Of a stretch of 64,000 bases of DNA, positions 13,644 through 24,899 are shown in pieces. The translations under genes and the position numbers were made by a program. Where the stretch lies: positions 1 to 64,000 of the forward strand of contig JABLXB010000005.1 of the NCBI GenBank assembly GCA_013178305.1. Direction: 5' to 3'. The stretch is from Bacillota bacterium. GTDB lineage: Bacteria > Bacillota > Sulfobacillia > JABLXB01. The notes beneath the pieces were generated by a model, which ran no database searches, was not told where the DNA came from, and saw only the letters and a list, made by a program, of their open reading frames with translations. Position 1 is the first letter of the stretch, and every line of letters starts with the position of its first letter.

Positions 13644-14345
13644 GTGCTAGATTCGCTTGAGCAGGTGAAGAGCCAGAAACTTACGGGGATTGTCGCTGAT
13701 AGGATCGTTGAGTTGATAAGGTCCGGGGTCCTGAAACCGGGTGATAGACTCCCTACCGAATGTGAGCTGTGCAAGAAGTTCGGAGTGAGCCGGTCCCCCC
13801 TTCGGGAAGCGCTGCGTGCGCTCGAATACGTCGGGCTGATCGACTCACATCAGGGATCGGGAAGATACGTGTCCCCAACTGCACTATCCTGCGTTCAAAG
13901 GGGCATAGACTGGGGTAGGGCCTTGAGCCGATCCCCTCTAGCAGAGCTTATGGAAGCCAGGAAGTACATTGAAGTGCTGGCGTGCAGGCTTGCTGCTCAG
14001 CGGGCTACGGAAGAGGATATATCAGCAATCGAAGGTATCCTGGGTAAACTAAAGGCTCGCTATACCGACGAATCATTCTACTTCACTGAGGAATTGAACC
14101 TTCACTTTGCTATAGTAACTGCGGCCAAGAACAAGCCCGTACTCGAGTTCATGAAAGCTCTCATTGATGAGATCTACAAGGAATCGGACAGGTTCAAGAG
14201 AACGATCCCAGTGTTGTACAAAGCCGCATTACCACTATTCGACCAACTACTTGTCAGCCTTAGAGATGGTCATTCCGAGGAGGCTGCGAGGTTGATGTTG
14301 GAGCATTTGGAGGCGGTGGAGGGCACCCTATGTAATGGTGAGTGA
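13644..14345 (+). CDS. GntR/FadR-family (FCD) transcriptional regulator
   Basis: N-terminal winged helix (residues 10-75): IVELIRSGVLKPGDRLPTECELCKKFGVSRSPLREALRALEYVGLI, a textbook GntR HTH. The rest (about 90-230) is an all-alpha FCD ligand domain with MEARKYIEVLACRLAAQRAT and LNLHFAIVTAAKNKPVLEFM; the histidines in such bundles usually bind a metal and an organic acid. It lies 27 nt after dctM and is likely the local regulator of the FAD oxidoreductase-TRAP operon, responding to the imported carboxylate. GTG start; the ribosome site is weak. Confidence 0.87.
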   Translation: MLDSLEQVKSQKLTGIVADRIVELIRSGVLKPGDRLPTECELCKKFGVSRSPLREALRALEYVGLIDSHQGSGRYVSPTALSCVQRGIDWGRALSRSPLAELMEARKYIEVLACRLAAQRATEEDISAIEGILGKLKARYTDESFYFTEELNLHFAIVTAAKNKPVLEFMKALIDEIYKESDRFKRTIPVLYKAALPLFDQLLVSLRDGHSEEAARLMLEHLEAVEGTLCNGE

Positions 14346-14968: not shown

Positions 14969-15964
14969 TTGGAGACAGCGAGGAAATTAGCCAAGGAATT
15001 GGCTAAGAACTGTAAGACGTTCCAGGACGTACAGAACGCGCTGAAGGATCTCTTCAAGACGACGCTCGAGGAGGTTCTGGAGGCCGAGATGACGGATCAC
15101 CTGGGCTATACAAAGAACAGTCCTGAGGGAGACAACTCGGGGAACAGTCGGAACGGGTACAGCAGAAAGACTTTCAAGACGCGCCAGGGTGAAGTGGAGG
15201 TAGAGGTCCCGCGCGATCGCAACGGTGAGTTCGAACCCCGGGTCGTCAAGAAGTACGAGAGGAACGCAAGCGAGCTCGAGGACCAGATCGTCGCGATATA
15301 CGCAAAGGGATGTCCATCAGGGACATTGAAGGCCACCTGCGTGACATCTACGGGATCGAGGTCTCCTCGGTTTAAGTCGAGGGCGCTTCAGGCGACTCTC
15401 GACGAGTACCGGCTGACTATCGAGGAGATGGAGGGACGGGTTCAAAGGTTGGAGAGCGAGATCCATGAGCACGCGGAGAAGAGCGTGCACACGCCGGTGA
15501 TCAAGGCGCTAGAGGCTTTTCGAGGCATCAAGGAAACAGCGGCTGTAACGATAGTGGCGGAAGTAGGGAAATTCTCCCGGTTCGAGAAGGCGCCTCAAGT
15601 GATGGGCTACTCGGGGACGGTGCCGAGCGAGTACTCCAGTGGGGCAAGGACCCATCGCGGGAGGATCACGAAGGCGGGGAACAACCACCTGAGGCGGATC
15701 CTGATCAAATGCGCGTGGAGTTACCGGCACAAGGCGTGGATGTCCGAGGCGATCAGAAAGCGGCAGGAAGGCCAGCCCGCCAGAGTCCAGGCGATATCGT
15801 GGAAGGCCCAGGTGCGTTTATGTAAGAAGTACCAGCATCTTATCAGCAAGGGAAAGAGTCCGCAGGTCGCCGTCACCGCGGTGGCTCGGGAGCTGCTGGG
15901 GTTCATCTGGGCGGCCGCCTGTGAAGTTGAGAAGCAGGAGATTAGGCAAGATGGAGCGGCATAA
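14969..15964 (+). pseudogene. chimeric ORF: IS256 N-terminus joined to IS110 C-terminus
   Basis: Residues 1-115 are the N-terminus of an IS256 transposase (LGYTKNSPEGDNSGNSRNGY, GEVEVEVPRDRNGEFEPRVV, DDQIVAIYAKG-like). Near 15310 a single-base shift puts the natural continuation GMSIRDIEGHLRDIYGIEVS in another frame, ending at a stop near 15374. From about 15375 the open frame is IS110 C-terminus: RVQRLESEIHEHAEKSVHTP, FRGIKETAAVTIVAEVG, YSGTVPSEYSSGARTHRGRI, TKAGNNHLRRILIKCAWSYR. Neither enzyme is complete. Bases 15965-16106 hold no gene. Confidence 0.8.
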
Positions 15965-16106: not shown

Positions 16107-18245
16107 ATGGTCGTCTTAGAATCCGATCATCAAGCGAGCGTACGGCGTTGCGGCCGAGCAATACAGCCGACCGGACCGGTGGGGGATGATGAGCTCGTGA
16201 AGGGAGTCACCGTAATTGCGAAGGGCAGGAACACCTGCCGTGCTCTGGTCGGGCAACTGCGAGGGATCCTCGAAGGCAAGGCGCGGGTGCGAGGGCTGTA
16301 TCTCGACGGTGGGATTGACGGACCTGTCTCAGACGACGTGGTGGTCGTGTCGAGCCGGATTATCGCCACGGACGCAAGGAAGTATACGCCCGAGGGCTGC
16401 AGGACCATCGTCGCGCGGAGGTGCCTCGACTACAACAACCTGAAAACGCTGTTCGACCTGCCCAACGAGACCGACGCCATCCTGGTGAACGACGCATACG
16501 CTGCCGCTATCGAGACAATCGACCTCTTGAAGGAATCGGGAATCGGTCACCTGAACCTCACGCCACACGCCCCGGACCATCCGTCCCCCGTACGAACGAC
16601 GCTCGCGATCACTGCGGGTGAGCCCCATCTGGTTCCCGACTATGTCAAGGAGTGTATCGACATTGGGGTCAGGCTTATCGACATCACGAGCATAGTGGAG
16701 ATCCTGATCGCCCTGGACCTGCTCGACGCCGAGGCGAATGTCGTATCGGCGCGCCAGATGCGGTATATCGTTGGTCTGCTCCGCGAAACAAGGGTTCAGG
16801 CGCTCCATGCCGGCAACGTTAAGAATCAGCTTGAGGCGATACTCGAATCAGTCGACGAAGGGATCATAGGGACGGATATCGACGGGAAAATCATGACCTG
16901 TAACCGCGCCGCGGCACGGCTGCTGGGTATCGACCTGAAGGACGTGCTCGGGAAGAAAACGGGCGACTTGCTGCCGGGAAGCGCTCCGGGGCTCGAGGCC
17001 GACCGCGACGCGTCCCGCTCAAGCGGTCTCATATCGGTGAATGAAAAGGACCTCGTGGCGACGAGGGCGCCCATCATGAGGGAACGTCAGCCGGTCGGGG
17101 CGGTATTTACTTTCAGGGACATAACCGAAATCAGACGCCTCGAGTCCCAGCTTTACAGTAAGCTCGTGAAGCAGGGGTACACCTCCAAATACAGTGCGGA
17201 CGACATCATCGGAACCAGCCCGGCGATGAGGGGCGCGATCGAGCTTGCCACTCGGATTGCCAGAGGCAATTCCACTGTGCTGATATGCGGGGAGAGCGGC
17301 TCAGGAAAGGAACTGTTCGCACACGCGATTCACGGTCTCTCGGACCGACGCCGCGGGCCGTTTGTCCCAGTCAACTTCGTCGCGCTTCCCGAGACCCTCC
17401 TGGAATCCGAGCTGTTTGGGTACGAGGAAGGGGCGTTCACGGGTGCCAGGAGAGGCGGTAAGCCCGGACTCTTCGAAGAGGCGCACGGAGGAACCATATT
17501 TCTCGATGAGATCGGAGACGCTTCCGCTGCTCTTCAGGCCAAGATCCTGAGGGTCCTCGAGGAGAAGAGAATACGCCGGGTGGGGGGTACGAAGAGCATC
17601 TCCGTGGACGTCCGGGTGATGGCGGCCACAAACAAGGACCTGCGGTCCCTAATAAGGGCGGGGTTGTTCCGGGAAGACCTGTTTTACAGGCTGGCCGTGT
17701 TACCCTTGAAAACTCCGCCTCTCAGGGAAAGGAGGCAGGACATTCCCCTCCTGATAGAGGTCTTTCTGGGCAGGTTGCACGCCTCCGGCAGCAGGCTGAA
17801 GATATCCCCGGAGGCAATGCGGTTGCTTATGGAACACCGCTGGCCGGGAAACGTGAGGGAGTTGCAGAACGTAATGGAGTACCTCTCCAATGTGTGCCTG
17901 GATGGCGTCGCAAAGCCACAAGACATCATGACGGTGCTGAACCTGTCTTCCGGCCTGCGCGCCCCAGCCATCCTGGGGCTCCTCTCCGCAGACAGAGACC
18001 TGGCCCTGTGGGTTCTGTCTGAGGCGCAAAGGGCCGCTGAGCGCGGCTCCGGCCTCGGCCGGAGGACGCTGATCGCCGCCGCAAGAGCCCACGGGCGCGC
18101 CGTGAGCGAGGGGGCACTCAGACGGTGCCTCAGCTATCTCCGGACCGCTGGACTCATCGAGGTCTCCAGGGGCAGGGGCGGGATCAGGGTTTCCGAGTTG
18201 GGGGCCAGCGTGCTCGGCGATAAGGCCGCATCACGCTCCCAATAA
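16107..18245 (+). CDS. sigma-54-dependent activator with PAS and non-Fis C-terminus
   Basis: 712 residues. Residues 1-220 are a sensor region I cannot assign. A PAS domain follows (AILESVDEGIIGTDIDGKIM to GAVFTFRDITEIRR). The AAA+ domain is complete: GESGSGKE Walker A, ELFGYEEGAFTGARRGG (the GAFTGA loop that contacts sigma-54), GGTIFLDEIGD Walker B and [11 protein letters not shown]. In place of a Fis HTH the last 110 residues end in a winged-helix-like module (LRRCLSYLRTAGLIEVSRGR). GGAGGG precedes ATG 16107. It very likely activates the -24/-12 promoter at 18419, ahead of the nhaC-iadA-aminotransferase operon. Confidence 0.9.
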   Translation: MVVLESDHQASVRRCGRAIQPTGPVGDDELVKGVTVIAKGRNTCRALVGQLRGILEGKARVRGLYLDGGIDGPVSDDVVVVSSRIIATDARKYTPEGCRTIVARRCLDYNNLKTLFDLPNETDAILVNDAYAAAIETIDLLKESGIGHLNLTPHAPDHPSPVRTTLAITAGEPHLVPDYVKECIDIGVRLIDITSIVEILIALDLLDAEANVVSARQMRYIVGLLRETRVQALHAGNVKNQLEAILESVDEGIIGTDIDGKIMTCNRAAARLLGIDLKDVLGKKTGDLLPGSAPGLEADRDASRSSGLISVNEKDLVATRAPIMRERQPVGAVFTFRDITEIRRLESQLYSKLVKQGYTSKYSADDIIGTSPAMRGAIELATRIARGNSTVLICGESGSGKELFAHAIHGLSDRRRGPFVPVNFVALPETLLESELFGYEEGAFTGARRGGKPGLFEEAHGGTIFLDEIGDASAALQAKILRVLEEKRIRRVGGTKSISVDVRVMAATNKDLRSLIRAGLFREDLFYRLAVLPLKTPPLRERRQDIPLLIEVFLGRLHASGSRLKISPEAMRLLMEHRWPGNVRELQNVMEYLSNVCLDGVAKPQDIMTVLNLSSGLRAPAILGLLSADRDLALWVLSEAQRAAERGSGLGRRTLIAAARAHGRAVSEGALRRCLSYLRTAGLIEVSRGRGGIRVSELGASVLGDKAASRSQ

Positions 18246-18323
18246 GATTCCTATTCGCACCTTCGCGTTCGTCAATCTACCCGCATATGGCGCATGTGCC
18301 CTGCAGCCGCCACCGACACTGAC

Positions 18324-18352
18324 CCCATTTACGTCCCATTTCCACCCCATAT
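18324..18352. promoter_or_regulatory. three helically phased CCCATWT repeats (candidate activator sites)
   Basis: CCCATTT at 18324-18330, CCCATTT at 18335-18341 and CCCATAT at 18346-18352 recur exactly every 11 bp, about one DNA turn, 70-95 bp upstream of the -24 element at 18421. This is where a sigma-54 enhancer-binding protein would sit. No other feature explains them. Binding by the adjacent activator is inference. Confidence 0.5.
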
Positions 18353-18418
18353 GCCCCGCCGCCTGACTACGGCTGTGTGAAACCCCTGCTCTTGTCAGTT
18401 GTCCGCGGCTTTCTGTCA

Positions 18419-18435
18419 TTGGCACGATTCCTGCT
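18419..18435 (+). promoter_or_regulatory. sigma-54 (-24/-12) promoter
   Basis: TTGGCACGATTCCTGCT: the invariant GG (18421-18422) and GC (18433-18434) are exactly 10 nt apart, and the -24 part TTGGCACG is a full consensus match. It lies 160 bp before nhaC and 175 bp after the activator gene. Expected product: one transcript through nhaC, iadA and the aminotransferase. Confidence 0.8.
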
Positions 18436-18595
18436 ATGACAGATGGTGTATCCGGTGGGCGGCGAGTTACCGGGGGGACCGGTCGATACTCCTCTCGGAT
18501 TGAAAGGGGGGTGTAAATAGGCTGTTTTGCGCGTTACGTCGAGAAGGCCATCCTGCCGTCACCGGCCAGTATCGGAGGAAAAGGAGGGCGTACGA

Positions 18596-19987
18596 ATGAA
18601 CGGCGGCGAAAAACCCGCGGAACCGAGTCTTAAGTTGTCTCTGACCGCTTTGTTGATCGCGATTTCGTTCTTGGTATACGGCGTCGGTTTCCTGAAGCTC
18701 AATGCGGCTGTTATCCTGCTTCTCATATCGATGGTGGTCACCGTAATCGCGGTATTCTGCCTGAGACATTCCTGGGACGAGTTACTTGAAAAGGGGATAA
18801 GGCCCACCATTGACAGGGCGATGGGCGCGATACTCATCCTCATAATAGTCGGTCCCCTCGTCGGCGCGTGGATGGTTTCGGGCACGATCCCGTATTTCAT
18901 CTACGTCGGGCTACAGATCCTCACGCCCAGGACTTTTCTCGTCTCGGCGGCGATCCTGTGTGCCATCTGCTCCACCATGACCGGCACCTCGTGGGGCACG
19001 GCGGCTACGCTGGGAGTTGCCCTGATGGGGGTCGCTTATGGCCTGGGCGTGCCGCTGCCGGCGGCGGCCGGCGCGGTCGTGGCGGGCTCGTACTTCGGGG
19101 ACAAGATCAGCCCGATATCGGACACGACGATTCTGGCCGCCGCGAGCGCGGAGACCGACCTGTTCGACCACATTAAGTCGATGCTCTGGACGACGCTTCC
19201 GGCGTTCGTGGTGGGGCTGGTCGTGTACACCGTTGCCGGGCTGGGGGCGTCGGGCGAAATCGACTACACTAAAGTGGAAGGCATCCTCAAGGGCCTGCGA
19301 CAGGTGTTCGTGCTTAACCCCATCTTACTACTTCCACCGCTGGTAGTGGTCTATCTGTCGTACCGCAAGGTCCCCACCATACCCACGCTGTGGGTGGGGA
19401 CAGTCGCGGCGATGCTCCTGGCCGTCACCGTGCAAGGGACCACGTTCAAGGCTGTCGCACAGGCGATGTACTCGGGAGGTTCCTTCAAGACGGATATTCC
19501 GGCCCTCAACAACCTGCTCAACCGCGGCGGTATGACCAGTATGATATCGTCGCTGGCTATCGTGTTCATGGCCTACGTCTTCGCCGGCGAGATGGAGTAT
19601 ACAGGAATGCTTAGAAAGGTCCTGGACCACATCAAGGCGTCGTTCATCAAGGGCAAGACCGGCAATCTGATTTTCTCAACGTCTCTCACGGGGATCCTCA
19701 CGGGGATGGTCACGGGGAACTCGTATCTGAGCATAATCGTCCCGGGACGCCTTTACATATCGCTGTTCAAGGAATTCGGGATCAAACGGTCCGTGCTGTC
19801 CAGGACGCTGGAGGACTCGGGTACTGTCCTGGTGCCCCTTATCCCCTGGTCGGCGGCGGGGGTCTACATGACCTCCACGCTTGGTGTCTCCACGCTGCAG
19901 TACCTGCCGTGGGCCGTGATGTGCTATCTTGGATTTGTCGTGGCGTGGGTTTATGGCTTCACGGGGCGGGCCATCTGGAGGGAATAG
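18596..19987 (+). CDS. NhaC-family Na+/H+ antiporter-like transporter
   Basis: 463 residues, 11-12 membrane helices. NhaC-type marks: CSTMTGTSWGTAATLGVALMG, AGAVVAGSYFGDKISPISDTTILAAA, and a C-terminal GNSYLSIIVPGRLY and SAAGVYMTSTLGV. Members include true Na+/H+ antiporters and the malate/lactate antiporter MleN. Here it shares an operon with an isoaspartyl peptidase and an aminotransferase, so exchange of an aspartate-like metabolite is as likely as pH control. ATG 18596 follows AAAAGGAGGGCG. Confidence 0.85.
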   Translation: MNGGEKPAEPSLKLSLTALLIAISFLVYGVGFLKLNAAVILLLISMVVTVIAVFCLRHSWDELLEKGIRPTIDRAMGAILILIIVGPLVGAWMVSGTIPYFIYVGLQILTPRTFLVSAAILCAICSTMTGTSWGTAATLGVALMGVAYGLGVPLPAAAGAVVAGSYFGDKISPISDTTILAAASAETDLFDHIKSMLWTTLPAFVVGLVVYTVAGLGASGEIDYTKVEGILKGLRQVFVLNPILLLPPLVVVYLSYRKVPTIPTLWVGTVAAMLLAVTVQGTTFKAVAQAMYSGGSFKTDIPALNNLLNRGGMTSMISSLAIVFMAYVFAGEMEYTGMLRKVLDHIKASFIKGKTGNLIFSTSLTGILTGMVTGNSYLSIIVPGRLYISLFKEFGIKRSVLSRTLEDSGTVLVPLIPWSAAGVYMTSTLGVSTLQYLPWAVMCYLGFVVAWVYGFTGRAIWRE

Positions 19988-20048: not shown

Positions 20049-21224
20049 ATGGGCTTGTTCAAGCTGCTGAAAGGCGGCAGGGTGTTCAGTCCCGACGAGC
20101 AGGGGAGGCATGACATACTGCTGTGTGGGGAGATCATCGCCGCGATGAACCCGTCTATCGAAGCGCCTCGTGGCATTCAGGCGGACGTGTACGACCTGGA
20201 CGGTGCCTGCATACTACCGGGGTTCATCGACCAGCACGTCCACCTTATCGGGGGAGGAGGCGAGGCGGGGTTCGCAACTCGCACGCCCGAGGTAACCCTC
20301 AGCGGCGTCACCCGGTGGGGGATCACGACCGTAGTCGGCTGCCTCGGCACTGACGGGGTGACAAGGCACCTGGCAGGGCTGCTTGCCAAGGCAAGAGGGC
20401 TGGAGTGCGAGGGGATCAGCGCGTACATGTATTCAGGGTCGTACCAGGTGCCCCCGGTAACCCTTACCGGCAGCATCCGGTCCGACATCGTGCTTATCGA
20501 TAAAGTGATAGGCGCAGGCGAAATCGCGATCTCGGATCATCGCTCCTCACAGCCCTCCGTACAGCAGCTGAAGGCCCTGGCCGCCGAGAGCCGGACCGGC
20601 GGGATGCTCTCCGGCAAGGCGGGAATCGTCAATGTCCACGTCGGCAGCGGCCGTCGAACCCTCGAACCGCTAATCGAGATAGTCGAGACCAGTGAGATCC
20701 CCATCTCCCAGTTCATGCCCACCCACGTGAACAGGTGCGCTCCCCTGCTCGACAGCGCCATAGGATGGGGAAGGCGCGGCGGGTACCTCGACGTGACGAC
20801 GGGCGTCAGCCCCGATGAAGGTTTCGGCGAGGCGATCAAGCCCAGCACCGCGCTCAGGGACATCTTCGAGGCGGGGGTCGCACCGGAGCTCGTTACGATG
20901 AGCTCGGACGGCAATGGTAGCATGCCGGTTTTCGACGAGCGAGGCAATCTCCAGCGCCTGCTTGTTGCCCCCCTCAAATCGCTGTATCTTGAGTTCGTCG
21001 ATTCCGTCACCAGAGAGGGCATCCCCCTCGGCCTTGCCGCTTCGGTCATCACCAGTAACGTGGCGAAGGCGCTCAGGTTGTACCCCCGCAAGGGTTGCGT
21101 CGCGCCCGGAAGCGACGCCGATCTGGTGGTGCTCGACAGCGGACTGCGGATCGCGCAGGTGTGGGCGAGAGGGAGGCTCATGGTGATGGACGGAGAATGC
21201 GTGGTGAAGGGGACTTTCGAATAA
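20049..21224 (+). CDS. iadA: isoaspartyl (beta-aspartyl) dipeptidase
   Basis: A zinc amidohydrolase that cleaves beta-aspartyl dipeptides from damaged proteins. GFIDQHVHLIGGGGEAGFATRTPE carries the HxH metal ligands; GVTRWGITTVVGCLGTDGVTRH, YSGSYQVPPVTLTGSIRSDI, GEIAISDHRSSQPS and SGKAGIVNVHVGSG are all characteristic of IadA. The VTMSSDGNGSMPVFD segment supplies the catalytic Asp. 391 residues, a normal length. GGGAGGGG precedes ATG 20049. It lies 61 bp after nhaC in the sigma-54 operon. Confidence 0.93.
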   Translation: MGLFKLLKGGRVFSPDEQGRHDILLCGEIIAAMNPSIEAPRGIQADVYDLDGACILPGFIDQHVHLIGGGGEAGFATRTPEVTLSGVTRWGITTVVGCLGTDGVTRHLAGLLAKARGLECEGISAYMYSGSYQVPPVTLTGSIRSDIVLIDKVIGAGEIAISDHRSSQPSVQQLKALAAESRTGGMLSGKAGIVNVHVGSGRRTLEPLIEIVETSEIPISQFMPTHVNRCAPLLDSAIGWGRRGGYLDVTTGVSPDEGFGEAIKPSTALRDIFEAGVAPELVTMSSDGNGSMPVFDERGNLQRLLVAPLKSLYLEFVDSVTREGIPLGLAASVITSNVAKALRLYPRKGCVAPGSDADLVVLDSGLRIAQVWARGRLMVMDGECVVKGTFE

Positions 21225-21272: not shown

Positions 21273-22145
21273 TTGGCGTTGGCGGGGCCGGAGCCGATCG
21301 TCTATGTGAACGGAAGGTTCGTGAGATACTGTGAAGCCACCGTAAGCATCGAGGACAGGGGATACCAGTTCGCCGACGGGATTTACGAGGTCATCCGCGT
21401 ATACGGCGGTAAGGTGTTCATGCTGGACGAACACCTGCAGCGTTTAGCCCGCAGCGCGGCAGCGATAGACCTGCCTCTGCCGGACCTTACAGCGCTCAGG
21501 CGGGATGCGCTCGAGCTGCTGACGAGGAACGGGTTTCCCGACTCCATTATATACATCCAGGTCACACGGGGAGCCTGCCCGAGGAGGCACCAGTACCCCG
21601 ACGGCCTGGCGCCTACCGTGGTCATGACCGCCAGGAAGATGGATATGCACCCCGCCCGGTTCAGGCAGGAAGGGGTCAGCGTCATATCGGTCGCGGATGA
21701 CAGGTGGGCACGGTGCCATATTAAGTCAATCTCGCTGCTCTCGAACATCCTGGCCAAACAGAAGGCCCACAAACAAGGCGCTTTCGAGGCCATCTATGTA
21801 AGGGACGGATTCGTAACTGAGGGGACGAACACCAATGTGTTCGTAGTCGAGGACGGCGCCATCGTCACTCCGCCGCTGACCAACTACATCCTGCCCGGTG
21901 TAACGCGGAGAGCGGTACTCAACCTGGCCGCACGGCTGGCGATTCCACGACGGGAGGAGCCGGTCTCGGTGGACCGGCTTTTCGCGGCGACAGCGGTATT
22001 CCTCACGGGCACCACGACCGAGGTCATGCCGGTGGTATCCATCGACGGCCGCCCGGTGGGCGACGGCCGCCCCGGCCCGGTGGCGTCGTGCCTGTTTGAA
22101 GGATACATGGACCTGGCATACCGTGAAGGTGAGCCGGTGCTGTAG
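21273..22145 (+). CDS. class IV PLP aminotransferase, D-amino-acid transaminase-like
   Basis: 290 residues. YVNGRFVRYCEATVSIEDRGYQFADGIYEVIRVY and a VTRGACPRRHQYP motif are strongly D-alanine transaminase-like; the PLP lysine is in RCHIKSISLLSNILAKQ, followed by TEGTNTNVFVV and LPGVTRRAVL. It would transfer the amino group between D-amino acids such as D-aspartate, D-glutamate or D-alanine and a keto acid. A branched-chain or 4-amino-4-deoxychorismate relative cannot be excluded. TTG 21273 is the best start, after GGCCGGGGGTGG. Last gene of the sigma-54 operon, ended by a hairpin at 22199. Confidence 0.85.
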   Translation: MALAGPEPIVYVNGRFVRYCEATVSIEDRGYQFADGIYEVIRVYGGKVFMLDEHLQRLARSAAAIDLPLPDLTALRRDALELLTRNGFPDSIIYIQVTRGACPRRHQYPDGLAPTVVMTARKMDMHPARFRQEGVSVISVADDRWARCHIKSISLLSNILAKQKAHKQGAFEAIYVRDGFVTEGTNTNVFVVEDGAIVTPPLTNYILPGVTRRAVLNLAARLAIPRREEPVSVDRLFAATAVFLTGTTTEVMPVVSIDGRPVGDGRPGPVASCLFEGYMDLAYREGEPVL

Positions 22146-22381: not shown

Positions 22382-22445
22382 TGGTGTCGGGAGCGGGACT
22401 TGAACCCGCACGGTGTTCACCATATGCCCCTCAAACGTACGCGTC
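22382..22445 (-). repeat. partial tRNA-Leu copy: candidate distal attachment site
   Basis: These 64 bp match 31393-31456 of the intact tRNA-Leu(GAG) at 63 positions with no gap; the single difference is T at 22425 against C at 31436. The copy covers the anticodon loop, variable arm, T arm, acceptor 3' strand and CCA, but lacks the D arm and 5' strand, so it is not a tRNA gene. It is the expected duplicate of a tRNA 3' end left by a tyrosine-recombinase element, and marks the left limit of the 9-kb segment ending at 31393. Confidence 0.85.
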
Positions 22446-23222: not shown

Positions 23223-23379
23223 ACACCCTTCTCCACCTTTGAGCCGTCATTCCCCGTGCTCACAAGATACCTTTATGACTGCCTGTACAGATAATACCGT
23301 ATCGGCTCATGCTTGGCGAGTCGGCGCGCAAGTCGATTTGGGCTATACATTATGGCATCCCGCCCCGCTCTTGCAGGAT

Positions 23380-23424
23380 TATTCCACAGAACCGAGAATA
23401 TCACATTATGGAATAAGTATTCCA
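23380..23424. promoter_or_regulatory. IclR-type palindromic operator upstream of the MttB-type gene
   Basis: TGGAATAAGTATTCCA at 23409-23424 is a perfect palindrome of 7-bp arms around AG, close to the TGGAAATNATTTCCA pattern known for IclR. A second half-site TATTCCA lies at 23380-23386, 29 bp earlier. The palindrome ends 26 bp before the ATG, so binding would repress the rightward operon. Assignment to the divergent IclR protein is inferred from position. Confidence 0.55.
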
Positions 23425-23450
23425 CGATGTGGCAAATGGGAGGGTGGGTA

Positions 23451-24899
23451 ATGGCACTGGCTGGTTACGGGGGACAGTATAAACCTCTGACGCCGACTGC
23501 GTTGGAGAGCATCTACGACGGTGGCCTGCGGTTGTTGGAGGAAGTCGGAATTCAAGTCAACAACCAGCGGGCCATCGCGATTTTTTCGGAGGCCGGGGCT
23601 AATGTCGACTGGCAAGGGCGCGTTGTGCGGATCCCCAGAAGACTCGTTGAAGGGGCTATTAACTCCGCTCCCTCTTCCGTGACTCTATGTGGGAGGCAAG
23701 CCGGTCACGACCTTACCCTGGAGAAGAACAGGGTTCATCTAGGAACTGGAGGCACTGCGGTCAACGTACTGGACCTCGAAGGGAAACGTCGGCCGTCCAG
23801 CCTTGATGATGTAAGGCGGCTGGGCAGGCTGGTGGACGCCATGGAGAACGTTCACTTCTACATGCTGCCGGTTTATCCCCACGACCTTGCCGCGGAGGAC
23901 GTGGACGTTAACAGGTTCTACGCAGGGCTGTCAAGCACCACTAAGCACATCACGGGCGGAGTGTACTCGGTAAAGGGGGTACGCGAGACAATTCGCGCCG
24001 CTGAGATACTGTCCGGCGGGGCGGAGACCCTTCGAAAGAAGCCCATCATCTCCTTCGTGGTTCTCGCTATCACTCCGTTGAAGATAGACGACCTGTACGG
24101 CGAGATGCTGCTGGAGATCGCCTCAAACAGGATTCCCGTCATAGTACCCACAGAACCGCAGTGTGGCTCGACTGCGCCCATGACACTCGCAGGCAATCTC
24201 GTACTGTACTGTGCGGAAACACTTGCGCAGGTCACGCTTGTCCAGCTCTGCAGTCCCGGGAGCCCGGTCATATGTGGGTACGTGGGGACAGTGACTGACC
24301 CGCGGACAATGGGGTATCTGGCGGGTGCGGCCGAAATGGGTCTCTTAAATGCGGCTGCCGCTCAACTTGCGCAATTCTGGGGTCTGCCTTTCTACGGCAC
24401 CGCCGGGATGAGCGACGCCAAAATCCCGGATGCTCAGTGTGGTTACGAGTCGGCCCTGACGACCCTCCTTGTTGCTATGGCGGGCGCCAATTACCTACAC
24501 GATTCGGCAGGGCTGTTAGACTTCGCGCTTACGATGAGCTACGAGAAGGTAGTCATCGACAACGAGGTCAACGGGATGGTAACCAGGGTTCTGAGCGGCA
24601 TCAACGCGGATGCAGAGCACCTCGCCCTGGACGTGATCCGGGAGGTCGGTCCGGGAGGTAACTTCCTCGCTCAGGTCCACACCGTAAAGCACTTGCGGAA
24701 GGAGTTGTACATGCCGCGGCTGAGCGACCGCCGGTCTTACGAGGAATGGATTGAATCGGGTAGCAAAGACACCCGGACCAGGGCAAACGAAAAGGCCAGG
24801 GCTATCCTGGGCGAACCGGCCAAACGGGTCGTGCCTGAGAACATTGAGGAAGAGCTCGCTAGGGCCCTGCCCAATCTGCGGCTGCCCCGACACGAATGA
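23451..24899 (+). CDS. MttB-family methyltransferase (non-pyrrolysine)
   Basis: 482 residues of the trimethylamine:corrinoid methyltransferase superfamily. The family pattern runs throughout: LEEVGIQVNNQRAIAIFSEAGANVD, VRIPRRLVEGAINSAPSSV, LGTGGTAVNVLDLEGKRRPS, TTKHITGGVYSVKG, and a C-terminal GPGGNFLAQVHTVKHLRKELYMPRLSDR. It reads through without an in-frame amber codon, so it is of the MtgB/MtpB-like non-Pyl type that demethylates quaternary amines such as betaines onto a corrinoid protein. GGGAGGGTGGG precedes ATG 23451. The corrinoid partner is next. The exact substrate is unknown. Confidence 0.88.
   Translation: MALAGYGGQYKPLTPTALESIYDGGLRLLEEVGIQVNNQRAIAIFSEAGANVDWQGRVVRIPRRLVEGAINSAPSSVTLCGRQAGHDLTLEKNRVHLGTGGTAVNVLDLEGKRRPSSLDDVRRLGRLVDAMENVHFYMLPVYPHDLAAEDVDVNRFYAGLSSTTKHITGGVYSVKGVRETIRAAEILSGGAETLRKKPIISFVVLAITPLKIDDLYGEMLLEIASNRIPVIVPTEPQCGSTAPMTLAGNLVLYCAETLAQVTLVQLCSPGSPVICGYVGTVTDPRTMGYLAGAAEMGLLNAAAAQLAQFWGLPFYGTAGMSDAKIPDAQCGYESALTTLLVAMAGANYLHDSAGLLDFALTMSYEKVVIDNEVNGMVTRVLSGINADAEHLALDVIREVGPGGNFLAQVHTVKHLRKELYMPRLSDRRSYEEWIESGSKDTRTRANEKARAILGEPAKRVVPENIEEELARALPNLRLPRHE

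Follow-up and report, generated by a model that had tools for sequence, protein, structure and literature searches.

In the usual description, enhancer-binding proteins act as dimers of the Fis type seated on inverted repeats. The basic architectures listed for sigma54 activators carry either HTH_8 C-termini or N-terminal domains of the phosphotransferase system (PTS) type (Francke et al. 2011, PMC3162934). The main text of a clostridial survey assigns Fis-type domains to 335 of 490 activators, which leaves room for winged-helix activators, and reports motifs computed for 39 groups, with an inverted TGT-N10-12-ACA in many groups and 15 groups, XcyR, GamR and GasR among them, called ‘distinct’ (Nie et al. 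2019, PMC6615313). Here we analyze a 64,000-nucleotide stretch of a Bacillota genome (contig JABLXB010000005.1, positions 1 to 64,000; hereafter the window), in which three copies of CCCATWT stand between the gene of a sigma54 activator, whose C-terminus is predicted to be a winged helix, and an operon of nhaC, iadA and a D-amino-acid transaminase gene. We consider it probable, at roughly 0.8, that this array is a tandem half-site enhancer for the adjacent activator and controls the operon. The window activator shares with activators of the NtrC/NifA type (Fis HTH_8) a GAFTGA-bearing AAA+ domain, a -24/-12 promoter and a site ~100 bp upstream of the transcription start; it differs in having a predicted winged helix in place of the Fis-type domain, and putative tandem direct half-sites in place of the inverted TGT-N10-12-ACA reported for many groups. 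LevR/PTS-type activators, in turn, are built with N-terminal DNA-binding and PRD domains, and Pfam, which returns only PAS and AAA+ for the window activator, finds no PRD match in it.

The three putative half-sites were identified by direct reading of the forward strand: CCCATTT at 18324–18330, CCCATTT at 18335–18341 and CCCATAT at 18346–18352, all between the activator stop (18245) and the nhaC ATG (18596). On re-reading, the positions and the step of exactly 11 bp proved to be just as the initial annotation had given them, and all copies are direct, with no inverted-repeat arrangement. Downstream, on the same strand, the -24/-12 sigma54 promoter TTGGCACGATTCCTGCT (18419–18435) departs from the consensus TGGCACGNNNNTTGCW at a single position, which bears out its earlier description as near-perfect. 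Measured from the -24 GG, the copies start 97, 86 and 75 bp upstream, a usual enhancer distance, or at about -122, -111 and -100 given a transcription start near 18446. Neither a sigma70-like promoter nor an intrinsic terminator was found in 18200–18640, and the NifA/NtrC-type sites TGT-N10-12-ACA and TGCAC...GTGCA are both missing from 18246–18420. A perfect 8-bp inverted repeat, TCTGTCAT/ATGACAGA, surrounds the -24/-12 element (18412–18443); it is absent from the nearest ortholog and is probably a chance occurrence.

Units as short as 7 bp could in principle recur by chance, or as a neutral low-complexity feature, an explanation that the numbers render scarcely credible here. Given how often the motif occurs in the window, ~2e-7 exact 11/11 triples are expected, and shuffles of the window yield at most 0.01 matches to a triple with up to three mismatches. 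Across the 3.37-Mb genome the array is the sole occurrence, the second match being the array itself shifted by one unit. The comparison with the nearest ortholog, a genome of the same taxonomic family (G001) whose activator is 59% identical, refutes the chance explanation in practice. Directly after the activator stop, G001 carries CCCATTT-N4-CCCAATA-N4-CCCATTA, followed by CCCATAT two turns on and then by CCGGCACATTTCATGCT. In an ungapped, promoter-anchored alignment the intergenic DNA of G001 and that of the window share only 37% identity; despite this divergence the three repeats stand in register, opposite half-sites 1 to 3 in that order, TTGGCACGATTCCTGCT pairs with CCGGCACATTTCATGCT, and each genome has its first repeat 95 bp upstream of the promoter element. 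The search for phased CCCATWT in orthologous upstream DNA had been set beforehand, with absence of the repeats named as the outcome that would speak against the array; what G001 offers is three phased CCCAWWW copies at an identical distance.

The activator itself is a protein of 683 residues encoded on the forward strand at 16194–18245, as delineated by Pfam, motif reading and AlphaFold2 models; ortholog alignments point to the GTG at 16194 as its likely start codon. It is laid out as an N-terminal alpha/beta domain (residues ~1–205), a PAS domain (212–310), an AAA+ domain (338–505), a lid (511–580) and a winged helix (~590–683). The AAA+ domain is matched by PF00158 at E = 3.9e-66, with GAFTGA at residue 413 and intact Walker motifs (GESGSGKE and IFLDE). 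Pfam gives no match to the Fis-type helix-turn-helix (HTH_8) anywhere in the protein, as the initial annotation had claimed, and the winged-helix-like C-terminus proposed there is supported by the model and by Pfam HTH_12, which matches 34 of 45 family members. In this predicted domain (17934–18242, forward strand) AlphaFold2 places three helices, H1, H2 and the recognition helix H3, a two-strand wing with GRGG, and a fourth helix, H4, with a predicted local distance difference test score (pLDDT) of about 91–95 in the core. Positions conserved across the family are the GR turn, an arginine of the recognition helix and RGRxG in the wing. The top Foldseek match is the DNA-binding domain of CggR, a member of the SorC family (E = 0.009). 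The likeness is at the level of fold only: CggR, which also binds direct repeats, is a repressor at sigma70-type promoters and has no AAA+ domain. The N-terminal 205 residues adopt a confident alpha/beta fold in the AlphaFold2 model, with neither a Pfam relative nor a confident PDB match, and probably act as the sensor. This type of activator, lacking the Fis helix-turn-helix and with a predicted winged-helix C-terminus, is kept across Bacillota and Spirochaetes. At the loci L150, L152 and L155 the same winged-helix domain ends open reading frames (ORFs) of 330–370 residues with no GAFTGA-like motif, which would be either split proteins or non-activators bearing the domain.

Among loci drawn from genome collections, 46 carry the C-terminal domain, and most of these have a -24/-12 element downstream of, or divergent from, the activator gene. 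The motif was fixed before any ortholog was seen; same-strand copies of CCCATWT 9–13 bp apart, with one mismatch allowed, were scored as a pair, and pairs were counted over the promoters other than those of the window and G001. In the first set, 14 of 39 family promoters contained a pair, compared with a shuffle mean of 1.2 and a maximum of 4. None of the 49 promoters initially set aside as controls did; 11 of these turned out to be promoters of full-length homologs and were counted with the family from then on, and the 38 remaining promoters of other sigma54 activators have neither pairs (0/38) nor triples (0/38). Because few pairs would be expected in the controls by chance, their zero counts for less than the shuffles do. 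Over all promoters combined, pairs occur in 18 of 67 (1.7 in shuffles), and triples with up to three mismatches in 13 of 69 (0.35 in shuffles). One member from another bacterial family (L161) has four CCCAT/CCCAA copies on the other strand, in steps of about 11, 11 and 10 bp. Word enrichment, run with no motif as input, gave top or near-top ranks to AACCAAT, ACCAATT, TTTAACC and ACCATTT, from which a family consensus of AACC(A/C)ATTT was derived; it was used in place of an expectation-maximization search, which converged on base composition only in these promoters. Tandem copies at one-turn steps are thus far above shuffles in the wider family and missing at other sigma54 activators. When 154 genomes of the class were scanned for the CCCATWT triple, matches outside G000 and G001 were no commoner than those of a reversed-pattern control, had no convincing -24/-12 element behind them and were rejected as chance. 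Tandem 11-bp repeats of GCCCCACAT around 1501–1529 of L121 (genome G005) have no convincing sigma54 promoter nearby.

The distances between copies across the family cluster at 9–11 and 20–22 bp, with a trough at 14–17 bp; the best period of these lags is 10.75–11 bp, a periodicity that 2000 uniform draws never matched. Helical periodicity of the lags makes the same-face arrangement a family property, which exact 11-bp spacing is not, steps of 9–10 bp being commoner. The notion of a phased array is thus retained family-wide in its one-turn phasing, as AACC(A/C)ATTT at about 9–13 bp, while the spelling CCCATWT and a step of exactly 11 bp are particular to the GC-rich members. The further proposal, a same-face array serving the activator encoded just before it, gains support from G001 and from the family comparison, which suggest that the activator would bind there.

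Five observations weigh against such an enhancer. First, the activator and the operon of G001 sit on separate contigs that both end in a gap: the activator contig stops ~55 bp past the promoter and the operon contig begins 63 bp upstream of nhaC. Most simply, the two contigs would be neighbors; the operon itself is conserved in G001, which speaks for the enhancer, with nhaC, iadA and the transaminase 80, 65 and 63% identical, respectively, to those of the window. Second, the held-out set of 17 fresh promoters, gathered by searching the phylum with a profile of the C-terminal domain, gives a modest signal when taken alone, with pairs in 4 promoters against a shuffle mean of 0.33 (maximum of 2 in 200). 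Third, 49 of the 67 family promoters have no pair in the simple motif test. Fourth, spacings of 9–13 bp and variable orientation make the geometry looser than a strict 11-bp array. Fifth, at L041, L156, L165, L167 and L172 the motif copies directly behind the activator stop are arranged as an inverted repeat with T-rich DNA after it, as would be expected if the repeats were a remnant or part of the activator gene’s intrinsic terminator and not an operator. We regard this explanation as very unlikely: the window has direct repeats only and no terminator-like site, and a terminator is not expected in divergent promoters, yet the signal stays in these alone (6 of 14, against 0.6 in shuffles) and also in promoters with no perfect 9-bp hairpin (10 of 46, against 1.1). 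As a separate matter, through half-sites inside the terminator-like hairpins of those five loci, binding of the activator could be linked to transcription termination at its own gene.

It is also unlikely, if slightly less so, that the repeats serve another regulator or an architectural protein, or bend the DNA as phased T-tracts. A GntR/FCD regulator (at 13644) and an IclR regulator (at 22431) are both encoded within 5 kb, and TTT recurs in helical phase along the array. However, the motif accompanies the activator family across Bacillota and Spirochaetes despite differing neighbors, it is missing from the promoters of other sigma54 activators, and the enriched words include a CC core that simple bending does not need.

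The computed evidence for a tandem half-site enhancer comprises the conserved, periodic sites, the promoter and operon beside them and the domain make-up of the activator; activator binding, oligomerization and oligomer state, looping and an inducer are what we infer from it. Each CCCATWT copy would be the half-site of one C-terminal winged-helix domain, and half-sites one helical turn apart would bring adjacent subunits onto one face of the DNA. The three phased sites may thereby seed an AAA+ oligomer 75–97 bp upstream of the -24 element. The activator would be licensed by a ligand at the N-terminal alpha/beta domain, the PAS domain or both, and could then reach sigma54-RNA polymerase through DNA looping and open the promoter; nhaC, iadA and the transaminase gene would be turned on, probably to let the cell take up and break down isoaspartyl dipeptides. 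A broader generalization, which we regard as evenly balanced, is that these proteins are a widespread activator class in Bacillota and Spirochaetes, in which an HTH_12-like winged helix replaced the Fis-type domain and tandem same-strand AACC(A/C)ATTT is the enhancer grammar. If true, monomers would be added one by one along a single DNA face to build the oligomer, in place of dimers assembling on palindromes, and a winged helix with phased direct half-sites would be an alternative route to nucleating the AAA+ ring. The recognition code (a CC core plus ATTT, in steps of about one turn) could then help predict the regulons of many uncharacterized activators that govern amino-acid and peptide catabolism in Bacillota of gut and soil, and the locus would point to a circuit by which isoaspartyl dipeptide recycling is controlled.

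The suggestion in the initial annotation that the site type would be new is uncertain. In the open-access literature no description was found of winged-helix or direct-repeat sigma54 activators matching this family, and the main text of Nie et al. 2019 (PMC6615313), compared by target genes rather than by motif letters, mentions no winged-helix domain and no tandem phased half-sites. The XcyR, GamR and GasR groups of that study are clostridial sigma54 activators with ‘distinct’ motifs, and the targets malY-pepT and puuD-puuT given there match genes beside our loci L063 and L057, so these groups likely overlap the winged-helix family and the letters of the site may already be in a figure of that study (PMC6615313). 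Novelty is therefore uncertain, since motifs were computed there for probable groups of this family; if the XcyR, GamR and GasR motifs read AACCAATTT-like, the site would already be listed, but not its grammar.

The genes behind the promoter, all on the forward strand, were named by NCBIfam equivalog cut-offs. The first, nhaC (18596–19987), encodes a Na+/H+ antiporter NhaC-type transporter (TIGR00931, 446.6 bits against a cut-off of 370); iadA (20049–21224) encodes a beta-aspartyl (isoaspartyl) dipeptidase (TIGR01975, 511 against 331); the third (21273–22145) encodes a D-amino-acid transaminase, a class IV aminotransferase (TIGR01121, 297.5 against 277). A role in the uptake and breakdown of isoaspartyl dipeptides is a guess from these enzymes. 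In 13 further loci, in Bacillota and one Spirochaete, iadA adjoins a homolog of the activator; in 8 of the 13 it is the second gene behind the promoter, usually preceded by a transporter gene, which marks a transporter with iadA as a recurring target.

Two other features of the neighborhood were recorded. Just upstream of the activator gene, an ORF at 14969–15964 (forward strand) joins a Transposase_mut (Mutator-type) start to a Transposase_20 (IS110-type) end, and would be either a chimera or an assembly of two element remnants. Further downstream, Rfam PYLIS_3, the pyrrolysine insertion sequence of mttB, scores above its gathering threshold at 24408–24507 (forward strand), inside an MttB-like ORF (23313–24899) that reads through without a stop, and this ORF is therefore probably a non-pyrrolysine homolog that keeps the RNA-like sequence.
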